Translations under genes and position numbers: made by a program
Source: Streptomyces galbus
GTDB lineage: Bacteria > Actinomycetota > Actinomycetes > Streptomycetales > Streptomycetaceae
Direction of reading: 5' to 3'
Assembly: GCF_005280195.1 (NCBI RefSeq)
Contig: NZ_SZPR01000018.1
Coordinates: 62,001-126,000 of the forward strand
DNA length: 64,000 nt
Notes under the pieces: model-generated
What the model was told of the DNA's origin: nothing
The model's input: only the letters and a program-made list of their open reading frames with translations
Databases searched by the model: none
Shown: positions 14,339 through 58,170 of the stretch, in pieces
How positions within the stretch are numbered: position 1 is the stretch's first letter
Layout of the letters: each line of letters opens with the position of its first letter

Positions 14339-15115
14339 ATGACGGACGAGGGTGACACCACGACGACGAAGCGTGTCGACTGGGACGCGGCGGCCGCCGC
14401 GTTCGACGACGAGCCCGACCACGGCCTGCGCGACCCCGGGGTGCGCGCCGCCTGGGCCGACCGGCTGCGCGCCTGGCTCCCCGAGCGCCCCGCGGACGTC
14501 CTGGACTTAGGGGGTGTCTCGTCGGTCAGGCCGGGCTCGCGGCGTCCGGCACCGCGCCTCGCCGCGTTGTCGTCGGTTGGCGATGCTCCGCATCGCCGCC
14601 CTCCTCCGCCTTGCGATGCACGGCACCGGACGCCGCTCCCTGATCCGGCCTGACCGACGAGACACCCCCTCGGCTGCGGCACCGGCAGCCTGTCGCTCCT
14701 CGCGGCCGAACAGGGGCACCGCGTCACCGGCGTCGACGCCTCCGCCCGCATGGTCGACCTCGCCCGCGCCAAGCGCGCCGGGCGTGACGCGGTGTTCCTG
14801 CGCGGTGACGCCGCGGCACCCCCCGTCGGGGAGCGGCGCTTCGACGTCGTCCTCGTCCGGCACGTGCTGTGGACGCTGCCCGGCCCGGCCCGCGTGCTGC
14901 GCCACTGGCGGGCGCTGCTGCGCCCCGGGGGCCGCTTCGTGCTGGTGGAGGGCGTGTGGGGGACGGTCGCCCCGGTCGGCGTCCCCGCCGAGCGCCTCAC
15001 CGCCCTGCTGGCGCCGTTCGTGGACCACGCGCGCGTGGAGCGGCTGTCGGACGACGCACGGCTGTGGGGGAGGGCGGTGACCGACGAGCGGTACGCGGTG
15101 GTGGGGCTGGTGTGA
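14339..15115 (+). pseudogene. Class I SAM-dependent methyltransferase, disrupted by a MITE
   Basis: Without the insert the frame gives a 204-aa Rossmann methyltransferase starting MTDEGDTTTTKRVDWDAAAA. The SAM-binding motif I is split: ...RPADVLD ends at the left of the insert and CGTGSLSLLAAEQGHRVTGVD resumes at the right. The rest (motif II DASARMVDLARA, post-I VVLVRHVLWTLPGPARVLRH) is intact to the TGA at 15115. The insert is 162 bp, a multiple of three, but carries an in-frame TGA (14651-14653), so only a 104-residue fragment can be made from the original start. Precise excision would restore VLDFGCGTG. The target of methylation is unknown. Confidence 0.88.
14509..14670. mobile_element. 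MITE, 162 bp, 26-bp perfect terminal inverted repeats
   Basis: The left end at 14509-14534 starts AGGGGGTGTCTCGTCGGTCA and is the exact complement of 14645-14670. Inside, a further imperfect inverted match (GCGGCGTCCGG) and a central hairpin GGCGATG-N5-CATCGCC make the whole element foldable. It encodes no protein. No clear target duplication remains (left flank ACTT, right flank CGGC). The ends resemble those of IS5-like elements, so it was probably moved by such a transposase in trans. Confidence 0.9.
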
Positions 15116-52027: not shown

Positions 52028-52074
52028 GGGCGGGCGGGATGCCGGAGTTCCGCACCCCGCCCCACCCCCGGCGC

Positions 52075-53142
52075 TCACTCGTACTCCGTCCCGCCCTTCC
52101 GCGTCAGGTACGCCGCGCTGACCGCCTTGGCGATGGCCCGGCCCCCCGTCACCGGGCTGTACCGCTCCACCGCGGGCCGGATCACGACGCCCTCCCGCAG
52201 GTGCAGCCCCCGGCCGGACACGGTCTCCCGGCCACTGGCGTGCCCCAGGACCGTCGCGCTGTCGTACGGGCCCTCGAACAGCCGTGGCACCAGCGGGAGT
52301 TCGCCGCCCAGCGCCTCCGCCGGGTCCAGCCACGTCACCGTGCCGCCGATCTCCGCGGAGACGTCGAACACGGCGTACCCGAGGGTGTCGCGCCGCCCGT
52401 CCGCGCCGTACGTCAGGTCCTGCACGCCCGCCCCGTACACCTCGCCGAAGACACCGACCCGTCGCGCGCCCAGCCGCTCGGCGAGCCGGGCCGCGGCCTC
52501 GGCGACGCGGTGACCCCGTACCGCGCGCCAGTACAGGTTGCGCGGATCCTCCTTCAGGGCCAGGGACCTGGCGCCGAAGCCCTTGGAGGAGACGTACACC
52601 CGGTCCTCGTCGGCGACGTAGGTGAGCAGGCAGGCCGAACCGTGCAGCTTCTCGGTCAGGACGACCGGCTCGCCGGGAGCGAAGATGTCCGGATACCGCT
52701 GGACGTTCTCGATGTCGACCCACGGCAGCAGCGCGGGCGCGGACTCGACCTCGCCGTTCATGGTCGGCGGGATCGGCGGCACCCACTTGGTGATGCCGAG
52801 TCGTTCCGCGAAGTCGGTGCCCTCGGCCGCGGCCCGGGCGAGGTCCACGTCCGCCAGCGCCGCCGGCCGGCAGACGATGCCCTGCGACAGCTCGCCCCGC
52901 AGCCGGACCGCCTTCACCCGGTCGGCGTTCCCGCCCGCGAGCCGCCCGGTCAGCCCCAGCTCCTCGATCAGCCCGGCCGGCAGCACCGCCTGCTCGGGGA
53001 TGTACACGGCCACGTCACCGGTGCGGTACACGCCCTTCGCCACGACCGCGCGGTACAGCCCGACCTGCGCCAACTCCAGCGCATCGGCGTTCGGGTGCTC
53101 GTGCACGGTCAGCACTTCGGCGGTGACGCGCAGCGTCGACAT
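52075..53142 (-). CDS. ATP-dependent RNA ligase, DraRnl (DRB0094) type
   Basis: 355 aa. The N-terminal part (about 1-130) is an OB-like domain (STLRVTAEVLTVHEHPNADALELAQVG) as in the Deinococcus enzyme. The nucleotidyltransferase core has motif I EKLHGSACL (adenylated Lys about 163), motif IIIa FGEVYGAGVQDL, motif IV HLREGVVIRP and motif V RAIAKAVSAAYLTRK. Such ligases seal 3'-OH/5'-phosphate RNA nicks with a template strand, hence a role in RNA repair. It stands alone, 47 bp from the convergent soxR stop; no RtcB, Pnkp or Hen1 is nearby. Confidence 0.88.
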   Translation of the reverse strand: MSTLRVTAEVLTVHEHPNADALELAQVGLYRAVVAKGVYRTGDVAVYIPEQAVLPAGLIEELGLTGRLAGGNADRVKAVRLRGELSQGIVCRPAALADVDLARAAAEGTDFAERLGITKWVPPIPPTMNGEVESAPALLPWVDIENVQRYPDIFAPGEPVVLTEKLHGSACLLTYVADEDRVYVSSKGFGARSLALKEDPRNLYWRAVRGHRVAEAAARLAERLGARRVGVFGEVYGAGVQDLTYGADGRRDTLGYAVFDVSAEIGGTVTWLDPAEALGGELPLVPRLFEGPYDSATVLGHASGRETVSGRGLHLREGVVIRPAVERYSPVTGGRAIAKAVSAAYLTRKGGTEYE

Positions 53143-53298
53143 GGCCTTCTCCCAGGGGTGTTCATCAGTTCGTCGGAAGTGTCCGCCCCACTGTCCCGCC
53201 GCCGAAATCCCTGGAACCACCGGATTACCCGCTGCTACCGTCACGCTCTTCGGCCGACGCGAGGAACGCGCCGCGCACGGAGTCATGACGGGAACCCC

Positions 53299-53793
53299 AT
53301 GCGTTCACCCGCCCTCACCGCGGCTCTCGCGGACATCGACACCGTCTTCGACGGCTTCGCCAGCCCGACCGAGACCGGCTGCGGCCGGTGCCGCCTTCCC
53401 GAGGAGACCGCCCACCTGCGCTCGCCGTACACGCGGGACGGCACAGGTCTCGAAGACGTCCTCGACGGGGTACGGCGGGTCGGGCGACCGCACCACGTCC
53501 GCCCACCACGCCGTCACCCACGCCTCGACGGCGTCGGCCTGTTCGACCGGCCAGCTCCCCCAGTCGGCCCGGGCCAGCCCGTGGAACCCCTCAGGGGTGT
53601 CTTGTCGATCAGGATCCCGCACGCCGAGGACGAGCTGCCGGCCGCGCTGCGCTCCTGGGTGGCGGCGCACGCTCCCGTCCGGCTGCGGGCCCTCGGCGAG
53701 CCCGACCTCGCCGAGCGCGCCGGACTCCTCGCCCTGTCCTACGACGACCGCTGGGCGCACCCGTACTGGCGCACCGCCTCCGCCACCAGCTGA
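53299..53793 (+). pseudogene. Hypothetical gene scrambled by an internal inversion
   Basis: The start (53299 to about 53435, plus strand) reads MRSPALTAALADIDTVFDGF ... TETGCGRCRLPEETAHLRSPYT. The end (about 53618-53793, plus) reads LRSWVAAHAPVRLRALGEPDLAERA ... RWAHPYWRTASATS. The middle segment of what I recall as one streptomycete protein family lies on the minus strand (about 53590 down to 53446): FHGLARADWGSWPVEQADAV ... SPDPPYPVEDVFETCA. So the central part is inverted, and segments on either side of it appear deleted. An IS/MITE end sits at the right breakpoint. A plus-strand frame stays open through the block, but the middle of that product is antisense noise. Original function unknown. 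Confidence 0.78.
53593..53613. mobile_element. IS/MITE terminal-repeat remnant at an inversion breakpoint
   Basis: GGGGTGTCTTGTCGATCAGG at 53594-53613 differs from the start of the MITE at 14510 (GGGGGTGTCTCGTCGGTCAGG) by one gap and two substitutions. No second end or internal sequence is present. Confidence 0.65.
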
Positions 53794-54470
53794 GCGTTGG
53801 ACACCGCCCGTCGGCCGTCCGGCAGGACGAGGGTGTCCTCCAGACCGATGCGGGTCGGGTGGCCGAGGCGCACGGCCAGGCCGAGGACCGGCCAGGCGGA
53901 CGCCTCCTCGCCGTGCAGGAGGACCGGGCGGCCGTGGGGGATCGCGGCGAGGTCCGCGAGCAGGTGGCGGGCCGACCGCACGGCCGTCGCCGGGCCGGGG
54001 TCCGTCACCTCGGCCAGGACGCGCAGGACCCTCGGTGCGAGGGGCGAGGCGGCGAAGCGGGCCGCGCCGTCCGTGCCGGACCAGATGCCGGCCTCCACGC
54101 CGACGCCCCGGTCGAGCAGCGCGGCGGCCAGTTCCTCGGCGCCCGGCTCGTGCCAGTTGACCGACGCGTGGTCGGGCAGCACCGTCCAGCGGCGGACCCG
54201 GTCGAGCCGTGCCGGCGGACCGTCCTCCGCCCACGCGCCCGTGGTCACGCCGACGGGCACGTCCACGCGCTCCCGGATCGCCTCCAGCGTCGCCGCGACC
54301 GCGTCCGGCGCGAGCGTGTCCCGGCCGCACGGTGTCTTCGGGTGGACGTGGAGGTCCGTCGCCCCGGCCGCGACCGCCTCGGCGGCGGACCGGGCCAGCG
54401 CCGCGGGCGACAGGGGCACCGCCGGGGAGTCGGCGGCCGTGCGCGCTCCGTTCAGACAGACCTGCACCAT
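53739..54470 (-). CDS. Beta-keto acid cleavage enzyme family protein (BKACE, DUF849)
   Basis: 243 aa, TIM barrel. MVQVCLNGARTAAD, LHVHPKTPCGRDTLAPD (two zinc-binding His), VGVTTGAWAED, SVNWHEPGAEEL, LLHGEEASAWPVL and TRIGLEDTLVLPDG are the DUF849/Kce blocks. Family members condense a beta-keto acid with acetyl-CoA to give acetoacetate and a CoA ester; 3-keto-5-aminohexanoate is the founding substrate. It is somewhat shorter than usual (about 270-300). The 3' end overlaps the scrambled gene by 55 bp. Confidence 0.87.
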   Translation of the reverse strand: MVQVCLNGARTAADSPAVPLSPAALARSAAEAVAAGATDLHVHPKTPCGRDTLAPDAVAATLEAIRERVDVPVGVTTGAWAEDGPPARLDRVRRWTVLPDHASVNWHEPGAEELAAALLDRGVGVEAGIWSGTDGAARFAASPLAPRVLRVLAEVTDPGPATAVRSARHLLADLAAIPHGRPVLLHGEEASAWPVLGLAVRLGHPTRIGLEDTLVLPDGRRAVSNAQLVAEAVRQYGCAQRSS

Positions 54471-54535
54471 GCCCCGATGGTGACACGTCCCGGGGAACAG
54501 GGGTGCGGCATCCCCGGCGCACCCCCGCCGTGCGG

Positions 54536-55138
54536 TCAGGCCGACATCAGCAGCCGTCCGCGCCGGGCGGCACCCAGCGCCCCGGGCGTGAGCACCGGCC
54601 GCGGGACGAGAATCCCGCAGTCCGCGCAGACCGGCCCGGCGGACGGCTCGTGGTCGAGGTCGTCCCTCCAGTCCAGCCGCTCACCGTCGCACACCGGGCA
54701 GCACGAGCCCGGTGCCCGCTCCAGCGCGGCGATCAGCCGGCGCAGCACCTCGGCCAGCGGTTCACGGGGGTGGACCCGCGGGTCGTCGCACCACGCCACA
54801 CCGAAGCCGCCCCAGGTCATCCGGTGCCAGTCGTCGACACTGCCGGGCCTGCGCAGCCCGTCGTGCTTCTCCTTCCTCCGCCGCTCGGCGAACCCCACCT
54901 CGTACGCGAGCCACACCGCGCGGGCCTCCTCCAGCTCCTCCAACGCGGCCACGAGCCGCGCCGGGTCGGGGGATCGGTCCTCGGGTCCGAACCCGGCCCG
55001 CGAGCACAGGTGGTCCCACGTCGCCCGGTGCCCGTAGGGCGCGAACCGCTCCAGGCACTTGCGCAGCGAGTACCGCCGCAGTGCCAGATCGCACCGCGGG
55101 TCGCGCACCTGTCTCGCCAGACTCCGGAAACCGGCCAT
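54536..55138 (-). CDS. Hypothetical protein with zinc ribbon
   Basis: 200 aa, not recognised. A helical, charged N-terminal two thirds (EELEEARAVWLAYEVGFAERRRKEK) precedes a CPVC (about 150) and CADC (about 175) pair that would form a zinc ribbon. GAGGTGCAAGGCG precedes the ATG at 55138. A small reading frame lies 38 bp upstream on the same strand. Role unknown; zinc ribbons of this kind often bind nucleic acid or act in complexes. Confidence 0.7.
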   Translation of the reverse strand: MAGFRSLARQVRDPRCDLALRRYSLRKCLERFAPYGHRATWDHLCSRAGFGPEDRSPDPARLVAALEELEEARAVWLAYEVGFAERRRKEKHDGLRRPGSVDDWHRMTWGGFGVAWCDDPRVHPREPLAEVLRRLIAALERAPGSCCPVCDGERLDWRDDLDHEPSAGPVCADCGILVPRPVLTPGALGAARRGRLLMSA

Positions 55139-55176
55139 CGCCTTGCACCTCCGTCACATCTGCACCTGTATTTCGG

Positions 55177-55320
55177 TCACTTCGGCGCCGCCGCGCCACC
55201 GACGCGCGACGTCGTCGAAGAGACGTACCGACAGGCGATTCGGCTCCACTCGATCTCCGTGCCGTCGTAAGAGCTGTCGCAAAGCCGCCGTAGGGACCTG
55301 GAAAAGTGACGCATGCTCAT
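55177..55320 (-). CDS. Possible 47-residue protein
   Basis: MSMRHFSRSLRRLCDSSYDG ... ending VGGAAAPK, with GGAG four bases before the ATG. In this frame about 84 percent of third positions are G or C over its 3' part; the alternative overlapping minus frame has far less, so this frame is the more gene-like. It is divergent from the acylase gene (60 bp) and may be cotranscribed with the zinc-ribbon gene. No family recognised. If not translated, the stretch is simply the leader of that gene. Confidence 0.35.
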   Translation of the reverse strand: MSMRHFSRSLRRLCDSSYDGTEIEWSRIACRYVSSTTSRVGGAAAPK

Positions 55321-55380
55321 CTTCACTCCGTGCGATACCGGCGGTAACCTTCCGGCCACCCCAGTCGCTAGGAGCTGCCC

Positions 55381-58170
55381 ATGCCACGGCGAACCTCCCG
55401 CGCAACCCTCGACAGACTGAGAACTCCCGGCAGATTCCCCGGGTTCCTGAAGAGCGCCTCGGTATGCGTCCTGATTGCGGGGCTGTTGTCCCCGCTCACC
55501 CAGACGGCCGCCTCGGCCGCCGGAACCGCCGCCCCGAACGACCTGTGCGGCGGCCAGTGTTCCGACATCCTGCCGCCCGGCGAGAACGGCAACGCCACCC
55601 TCGCCCAGATCCTGCTCAACCAGGCCTTCGGCACCCAGCCCGGGCACGCCGAGGACCAGCTCGGCCCCTACGCCAACCTGGCCAAGGGCTACCCCTCCCT
55701 GACCAACGCGACGATCAACACCTTCTTCAACGACGCCTCGTTCGGCGTCCCCTCCGACCAGGTCGCCTCCACCGAGAAGCCCGCCGGGCGCGGTGACGTG
55801 ACGATCGTCCGCGACAAGAAGACGGGTGTGCCGCACATCACGGGCACCACGCGCTACGGCACCGAGTTCGGCGCCGGCTATGCCGCCGCCCAGGACCGGC
55901 TGTGGCTGATGGACGTCTTCCGGCACGTGGGCCGCGGGCAGCTGACCGGCTTCGCGGGCGGCGCGCCCTCCAACCAGGGCCTGGAACAGCAGTTCTGGCG
56001 CAACGCCCCCTACACCGAGGCCGACCTCCAGGCGCAGATCGACAACGCCGTGGCGAACAACGGCGCCCGCGGTCAGCAGGCCCTCGCCGACGTCAGGGCC
56101 TACCTCGACGGCATCAACGCCTACATCGACGCCTCCGACAGCGGCCGCTACTTCCCCGGCGAGTACGTGCTGACCGGCCACAAGGACTCCATCACCAACG
56201 CCGGCACGATCGACCACTTCAAGGTGACCGACCTGGTGGCGCTGGCCTCGGTCGTCGGCGCGCTGTTCGGCTCCGGCGGCGGGGGAGAGGTCGACAACGC
56301 CCTCTCCCTGCTCGCCGCCCAGGAGAAGTACGGCGTGGCCGAGGGCACCAGGGTCTGGGAGTCCTTCCGTGAACGCAACGACCCCGAGGCCGTCCTGACC
56401 GTCCACGACGGCCGCAGCTTCCCCTACGCCACCCGGCCCGACACCCCCCAGGGCGAGGCCCTGCCCGACGCCGGCTCGGTCGCCGAGGAACCGCTGGTGT
56501 ACGACCGCACCGGCAGCGCGGCGACGGCCACCGCGAGCACCGCGTCCCGCACGGCCGCCGCGACCGCCCTCACCTCCGCGCGGCGCGGCATGTCCAACGC
56601 CCTGGTGGTCAGCGGGACGTACACGGCGAGCGGCCACCCGGTCGCCGTCTTCGGCCCGCAGACCGGCTACTTCGCGCCGCAACTGCTCATGCTCCAGGAG
56701 ATCCAGGGCCCCGGACTGAGCGCCCGCGGCGCCTCCTTCGCGGGCCTGAGCATGTACGTCGAACTGGGACGCGGCCAGGACTACGCGTGGAGCGCCACGA
56801 CCTCCGGCCAGGACATCATCGACACCTACGCGGTCGAGCTGTGCCAGGACGACTACCACTACCTGTACCGCGGCACCTGCACGGCGATGGACAAGGTAGA
56901 GCAGAAGAACGCCTGGAAGCCCACCACGGCCGACGGCACCGCGGCCGGCTCGTACACGATGCGGGTCTGGCGCACCCGGTACGGTCCGGTCGAGTACCGG
57001 GCCACCGTCGGCGGCAAGAAGGTCGCCTACACCACCCTGCGCTCCTCCTACCTGCACGAGGCCGACTCCATCATCGGCTTCCAGATGCTGAACGACCCGG
57101 ACTACGTCAAGGGCCCCGACAGCTTCCAGGGCGCGGTGCAGCACATCAACTACACCTTCAACTGGTTCTACGCCGACGCCGCGCACACCGCGTACTACAA
57201 CAGCGGCGACAACCCGGTGCGGGCGAGCGGCGTCGACGCGGAGTTCCCGGTCTGGGCGCAGCCGGCGTACGAGTGGCGCGGCTGGGACCCGGCCACCAAC
57301 ACCGCCGCCTACACCCCGGCCTCGGCGCACCCCCACTCCACCGACCAGGACTACTACATCTCCTGGAACAACAAGCAGGCCGAGGACTACACGACCGCGC
57401 CCTGGGGCGACGGCTCCGTGCACCGCGGGAACCTGCTGGAGGACCGGGTGAAGAAGCTGGTCGCCGCCGGCGGCGTCACCCGCGCCGCGCTGGTCAAGGC
57501 CATGGGCGAGGCGGCCCTCGCCGACCTGCGCGCCGAGGACGTCCTGCCGGACCTGCTGAAGGTGATCACCAGCTCCCCGGTCACCGACGCCACGGCCGCG
57601 GCGGCCGTGGGCAAGCTGCAGACCTGGCTCACGGCGGGCGGCCTGCGCACGGAGACGTCGGCCGGCTCCAAGACGTACGCGAACGCCGACGCGATCCGGC
57701 TGCTGGACGCCTGGTGGCCGCTGCTGGTGAAGGCCGAGTTCCAACCGGGCCTGGGCAGCGACCTGTACACGGCGTTCACGCACAACCTGCCCGTCGACGA
57801 GGCCCCTTCGGCCGGCCACGGCCCGACCGGCTCGCACGCCGGGAGCTCGTTCCAGTACGGCTGGTGGAGCTATGTCGACAAGGACATCCGCGCGGTGCTC
57901 GGCCAGTCCGTGCGGGGACCGCTGGCGCGGACGTACTGCGGCGGCGGCAGCCTGGCCGCCTGCCGGGACGTGCTGATCGGCTCCCTGAAGGAGGCGGCCG
58001 GCGCGACCGCGGCCCAGGTCTACCCGGGCGACGACCAGTGCTCGGCGGGCGACCAGTGGTGCGCCGACTCGATCGTCCAGCGCACCCTGGGCGGCATCAA
58101 GCACTACCGGATCAGCTGGCAGAACCGCCCCACCTACCAGCAGGTCGTGGAGTTCACCTCGCACCGCTGA
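55381..58170 (+). CDS. Secreted penicillin-acylase-family Ntn hydrolase
   Basis: 929 aa preproprotein. The signal peptide (ASVCVLIAGLLSPLTQTAASA, ends about 46) is followed by the alpha chain (FGAGYAAAQDRLWLMDVFRHVGRGQLTGF), a spacer ending near GM-SNALVVSG, and a beta chain whose new N-terminal Ser (about 405) is the nucleophile. VFGPQTGYFAPQ, YAWSATTSGQDIIDTYAVEL and FNWFYADAAHTAYYNSG are beta-chain blocks. Family members cleave amide bonds of penicillins, acyl-homoserine lactones or echinocandin-type lipopeptides. The length (over 900) fits the quorum-signal/lipopeptide acylases. Two cysteine pairs near the end suggest disulfides. Confidence 0.92.
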   Translation: MPRRTSRATLDRLRTPGRFPGFLKSASVCVLIAGLLSPLTQTAASAAGTAAPNDLCGGQCSDILPPGENGNATLAQILLNQAFGTQPGHAEDQLGPYANLAKGYPSLTNATINTFFNDASFGVPSDQVASTEKPAGRGDVTIVRDKKTGVPHITGTTRYGTEFGAGYAAAQDRLWLMDVFRHVGRGQLTGFAGGAPSNQGLEQQFWRNAPYTEADLQAQIDNAVANNGARGQQALADVRAYLDGINAYIDASDSGRYFPGEYVLTGHKDSITNAGTIDHFKVTDLVALASVVGALFGSGGGGEVDNALSLLAAQEKYGVAEGTRVWESFRERNDPEAVLTVHDGRSFPYATRPDTPQGEALPDAGSVAEEPLVYDRTGSAATATASTASRTAAATALTSARRGMSNALVVSGTYTASGHPVAVFGPQTGYFAPQLLMLQEIQGPGLSARGASFAGLSMYVELGRGQDYAWSATTSGQDIIDTYAVELCQDDYHYLYRGTCTAMDKVEQKNAWKPTTADGTAAGSYTMRVWRTRYGPVEYRATVGGKKVAYTTLRSSYLHEADSIIGFQMLNDPDYVKGPDSFQGAVQHINYTFNWFYADAAHTAYYNSGDNPVRASGVDAEFPVWAQPAYEWRGWDPATNTAAYTPASAHPHSTDQDYYISWNNKQAEDYTTAPWGDGSVHRGNLLEDRVKKLVAAGGVTRAALVKAMGEAALADLRAEDVLPDLLKVITSSPVTDATAAAAVGKLQTWLTAGGLRTETSAGSKTYANADAIRLLDAWWPLLVKAEFQPGLGSDLYTAFTHNLPVDEAPSAGHGPTGSHAGSSFQYGWWSYVDKDIRAVLGQSVRGPLARTYCGGGSLAACRDVLIGSLKEAAGATAAQVYPGDDQCSAGDQWCADSIVQRTLGGIKHYRISWQNRPTYQQVVEFTSHR

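Follow-up and report, generated by a model that had tools for sequence, protein, structure and literature searches.

Local inversions and deletions with an element end at a breakpoint are known among the products of Tn5 and Tn10, for which inversions, deletion-inversions and adjacent deletions are described in the relevant passages of PMC2723962. According to the same passages, replicative inversions made by a transposon leave a second copy of the element and adjacent deletions start at the element terminus. Short inversions, two-sided losses and strong palindromes feature in work on template switching in yeast (extracts of PMC8604942) and on palindrome fragility (extracts of PMC7999016). Intragenic inversions, or invertons, in which part of a coding sequence is inverted and the frame is still open, are also discussed in the available portions of the literature. 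Among the open-licence papers listed for Streptomyces MITEs, IS5 with CTAG, or internal inversion and pseudogenes, no matching case was found.

The locus described here lies in a window of 64,000 nucleotides, the whole stretch of Streptomyces galbus DNA that was analysed, and contains a scrambled gene at 53299-53793. As in the Tn5 and Tn10 products, the inversion is local, sequence has been deleted and one breakpoint carries an element end, but in contrast to those products, as the cited passages of PMC2723962 present them, no second copy is present, the element terminus adjoins the gene and the break lies 20 bp inside the element. The short inversion, loss on both sides and strong palindrome also resemble the yeast and palindrome cases, although the scramble greatly exceeds in size the small multinucleotide changes treated in the extracts of PMC8604942, and such a mechanism would here be a proposed one. 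Bacterial MITE insertions and truncated relics share the tip sequence and the presence of hairpin-forming complete relatives in the same genome, whereas here only 20 bp remain and the host gene has been rearranged too. Unlike the invertons of the sources available, this locus had no flanking inverted repeats that could be found, and its flank loss is irreversible.

Layout of the scrambled gene

The segment 53299-53793 is the orthologue of a Streptomyces gene of approximately 244 aa and consists of three pieces (i.e. N, M and C), with the middle third, M, inverted between the gene's own N- and C-terminal thirds in the order plus, minus, plus. A tblastn comparison with an intact homologue of 244 aa (L041) matched residues 1-46 (72% identity, E 6e-17) and 197-244 (58% identity, E 1e-13) to the plus strand of the window and residues 94-142 (53% identity, E 6e-17) to the minus strand. 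The N part (53299-53436, plus strand) contains codons 1-46 in the native orientation with the native start, and its joint to the far end of inverted M was placed within a few bases at 53437-53439. The M part (53440-53593, minus strand) is homologous to residues 92-142, approximately, of the intact protein. Next comes the 20-bp tip of a palindromic MITE (53594-53613, plus strand), whose outer end, on the left, is joined to M and whose inside end, on the right, is joined to C. The C part (53612-53793, plus strand) runs from about residue 189 to residue 244 in the native orientation and ends at the native stop; its first GG is common to the end of the MITE tip. Measured against an intact gene (L105), about 130 bp are missing on either side of M. 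The inverted middle and the lost flanking pieces had both been proposed in an earlier note, and both were borne out by these comparisons.

A switchable intragenic inversion, flipping within the population, would also place M on the opposite strand, and the portions of the literature available discuss invertible segments in bacteria, intragenic ones among them. Of 26 inverted-repeat pairs, however, the 25 longest include none that flanks M and none that pairs 53437-53439 with 53590-53613. Gene sequence has also been lost on both sides of M, so re-flipping would not restore the gene, and a switch of this type is considered so improbable as to be negligible. An assembly error was very improbable. 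The source genome is a 7.83-Mb draft, and its 111 contigs leave room for such errors, but the locus lies well inside a contig of 440,822 bp, the joints are unique sequence, the N part matches the genome only once, and the flanking pieces are absent rather than misplaced nearby.

An RNA ligase gene of the DRB0094 type (TIGR02306, 479 bits) is located divergently upstream at 52075-53286. A 584-aa plus-strand open frame at 52039-53793 covers the RNA ligase gene in antisense and extends, without a change of frame, into the scrambled gene; this long frame is probably an effect of high G+C. A search of 52500-55500 for structured RNA gave no Rfam match.

Comparison with relatives

DNA matches to the scrambled gene at E <= 1e-15 were obtained for 39 of 392 genus genomes, its own included. 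Alignment of each segment to intact homologues, as the earlier note had advised, detected all three pieces in 27 of the 31 loci compared in detail (26 distinct genomes) and one or two pieces in the remaining four. The pieces were collinear in those 27 loci, whereas in the window M is on the opposite strand between N and C. Among the named loci, N and M were collinear on one strand in 35 of 35 and C likewise in 34. A divergent RNA ligase gene was present upstream in 27 of these 35 loci (one only in part) and a convergent BKACE gene downstream in 31; most relatives thus share the neighbours of the scrambled gene, which therefore represents the same locus and an orthologue.

The frame was open for at least 225 aa from the match start in 30 of the 35 loci; one relative (L118) had an in-frame loss and three (L124, L136 and L138) a shortened gene. 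These four and two further relatives (L066 and L064) each have deletions or changes of frame of their own in this gene, which thus seems prone to decay. Among the loci compared, the inversion is, as judged from the alignments, confined to the window's copy. The earlier note had named homologues with the same layout as a finding that would refute its reading, and no match spanning the scramble joints was found among 392 genus genomes or 395 relatives (overlapping sets, each of them a sample), indicating a lineage-specific accident. The exact MITE/C joint was absent from the genome contigs scanned, a set from which records near the source genome were possibly excluded.

The element end and its family

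The tip at 53594-53613 was identical at 20 of 20 bases to CTAG-flanked tips in other Streptomyces and, equally, to a tip elsewhere in its own genome (L088). Its 19-bp core had one match in the window, with none expected from 100 shuffles, and a looser tip pattern added only a related, complete 158-bp MITE of the same family at 14511-14668, with flanks TTAG and CTCG. This complete copy splits a gene at 14339-15115 just before a glycine-rich motif; by that motif, the gene presumably encodes a SAM-dependent methyltransferase. Complete copies in the genome were 157-158 bp long, strongly palindromic and, in most cases, bordered by CTAG or a sequence close to it, and the complete MITE is predicted to form a strong hairpin (z -9.5). 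The four bases outside the 20-bp tip (53590-53593) are CTCA, differing at two of four positions from the CTAG of most intact family members; several other copies in the same genome deviate too.

Searches for an inverted partner end about 158 bp from the tip found none and the tip is single, which marks it, by its sequence, as a relic and not a complete member of the 158-bp family. Tip-like hits in the source genome numbered 40, of which 34 were examined and six without a locus were left out. Sixteen of the 34 were the ends of eight complete copies, two were the ends of a 63-bp form, two belonged to short forms with degenerate partners (L085 and L099) and one (L007) was probably a chance hit. 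The other 13, including the tip in the scrambled gene, were single and truncated, most being broken within 35 bp; with twelve other single tips, truncated copies are common in this genome. The CTAG-flanked tip pattern was present in eight of 150 sampled genus genomes, its own included. Thirty loci were fetched, 23 of them from other genomes, where 22 had a partner 47-197 bp away and one did not; CTAG was present on both sides in 16 of the 22.

No partner at an IS-like distance was detected in the examined loci within about 1.5 kb, the sole exception being a weak hit with five mismatches beside a complete copy (L092). Transposase loci with PF13359 (one match) or PF01609 (eight matches) were found in the source genome and none bears these ends, and PF13358 (DDE_3) had no match there; this genome is a draft, so copies at contig ends may be missed. 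With neither a partner at IS distance nor a DDE transposase locus with such ends, the 20-bp tip was assigned as a MITE relic. The family with CTAG flanks (in the source genome L075-L104, L008, L011 and L012; in other genomes L140-L169) is apparently an orphan. Elements of the IS5 family make a short target duplication of the YTAR type and IS630-like elements duplicate TA; we take the CTAG flanks to fit IS630 as well as IS5. The earlier note had described the right breakpoint as carrying a 20-bp IS5/MITE-like end related to the MITE at 14.5 kb. The MITE tip and its kinship with 14511-14668 held, whereas the IS5 label is a guess from the CTAG flank only and was not confirmed.

Origin of the rearrangement

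M borders the tip at its outer end, with homology reaching to within a few bases of the tip, so this side looks like a plain insertion. The favoured reading, held at a probability of about 0.57, is that a MITE inserted and that a later deletion-inversion-deletion by repair altered the gene, most likely leaving a pseudogene. In a first step, the MITE would have inserted between the first and middle thirds of the gene, a position suggested by the tip adjoining the edge of M. In a second step, N would have been joined to the far end of M, while M was flipped, carrying the terminal 20 bp of the MITE with it, and C was connected to the interior of the element. Chemically, the most likely route would be either the end-joining of two breaks, in which the fragment between them was flipped, or template switching during replication at the hairpin formed by the MITE. 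The two events (i.e. MITE insertion and one deletion-inversion-deletion) would account for all four ends. No intermediate stage was seen in sister genomes, and the gene region of relatives lacked a MITE tip at up to four mismatches in 68 loci (a few of them weak or partial homologues); the insertion step is therefore one that we infer. What the sequence shows directly is the layout, the missing flanks and what the tip is; how the events were ordered, what part the hairpin played and which repair route was taken are likewise inferred.

The earlier note had taken the locus as direct evidence of intramolecular transposition. The sequence does not show this: the break falls 20 bp within the element, rather than at its terminus, and no further copy was found close by. 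A MITE-like end does mark the right breakpoint, as the note had stated. Inversion by a transposase could nevertheless have started from a MITE at the edge of C, whose left tip would attack, within the one molecule, a site at M's edge and so invert M with the piece that follows it; one later deletion would then remove both lost pieces and another would take most of the MITE. This route yields the same final order, would place the lost pieces next to each other, within reach of a single deletion, and has the tip adjoining M where the new transposition joint would be. Against it, no second element copy was found in the window, the inner break is not at a terminus as it would be in the adjacent deletions described in passages of PMC2723962, more events are required, and the genome has no transposase locus bearing these ends. 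Later deletions could hide a terminal break or a second copy of the transposition product, and the transposase route is judged unlikely.

A series of separate accidents is rather improbable. M would have been inverted first, the inverted piece would then have received a MITE, and a deletion would have run from inside the MITE to C. Single truncated MITE tips do occur commonly in this genome with no known inversion, but this series requires that a MITE happened to insert where M now ends.

Dead gene or chimeric protein

Following insertion and repair, as in the favoured reading, the gene is most likely a pseudogene, in which M can no longer be read in sense and some 130 bp have gone from either side of it. 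The intact protein (residues as encoded by L105 3001-3732 and its relatives) has invariant C28 and C140 and nearly invariant C31 and C167. It was modelled with confidence as all-helical (pLDDT 93), and it matched no Pfam or NCBIfam family, no PDB sequence and, convincingly, none of the solved folds (best E 0.47). M and the lost pieces supply many helices of this model, which makes it unlikely that the native function has been retained.

A 164-aa open frame (53299-53793, plus strand) runs from the native start to the native stop through N, antisense M, the MITE tip and C, and the antisense reading of M keeps the codon register. When scrambles of 42 homologues were simulated, 19.5% were open on average (range 8-34%); with about 20% open by chance, the openness of this frame alone says little. 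Constraint was examined in a set of 42 homologues and the window, from which near-duplicates and L055, L066, L124, L136, L137 and L138 (gaps) had been removed. The mean nonsynonymous difference in N was 0.162 as compared to 0.163 for the homologues, 22 of 42 being at or above the window. For M, the values were 0.262 and 0.187, with 0 of 42 homologues at or above the window, and for C 0.251 and 0.212, with 5 of 42. With duplicates still in, the window was reached by 2 of 59 homologues in M and 12 of 56 in C, and the direction was the same for N and M.

At columns of 90% conservation, changes were found in 1 of 24 for N, 4 of 20 for M and 2 of 17 for C. These differences hint that N may have kept constraint while M lost it. 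Against this hint, M versus N plus C gave a p of 0.26 at 80% conservation, the M/N ratio of one homologue (L056) exceeds that of the window and that of another (L057) equals it, and C is somewhat raised. Since N has no excess of change, C a slight one and M the largest, and since the frame is open, a constrained chimeric protein is possible on weak evidence. The surviving frame and the unraised change in N are unexpected for a long-dead pseudogene. A single-sequence fold of the chimera gave a pLDDT of 37, a value that is uninformative without a single-sequence control of the intact homologue. That the scramble is a new gene, encoding a 164-aa protein with native ends and an antisense-coded middle under constraint, is considered quite improbable.

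Implications

The locus is a well-resolved plus, minus, plus gene beside a MITE relic, and collinear orthologues in dozens of Streptomyces polarise the change. It also cautions that an element end at a breakpoint does not by itself prove transposition. The scramble is ordinary but instructive and pseudogene-like, though a single, weak hint points to a chimeric frame that is still live. Should the frame prove to be expressed and under constraint, antisense-coded sequence would here form part of a protein, which would be unusual, and a MITE-linked rearrangement would have made a usable product and not a dead protein.
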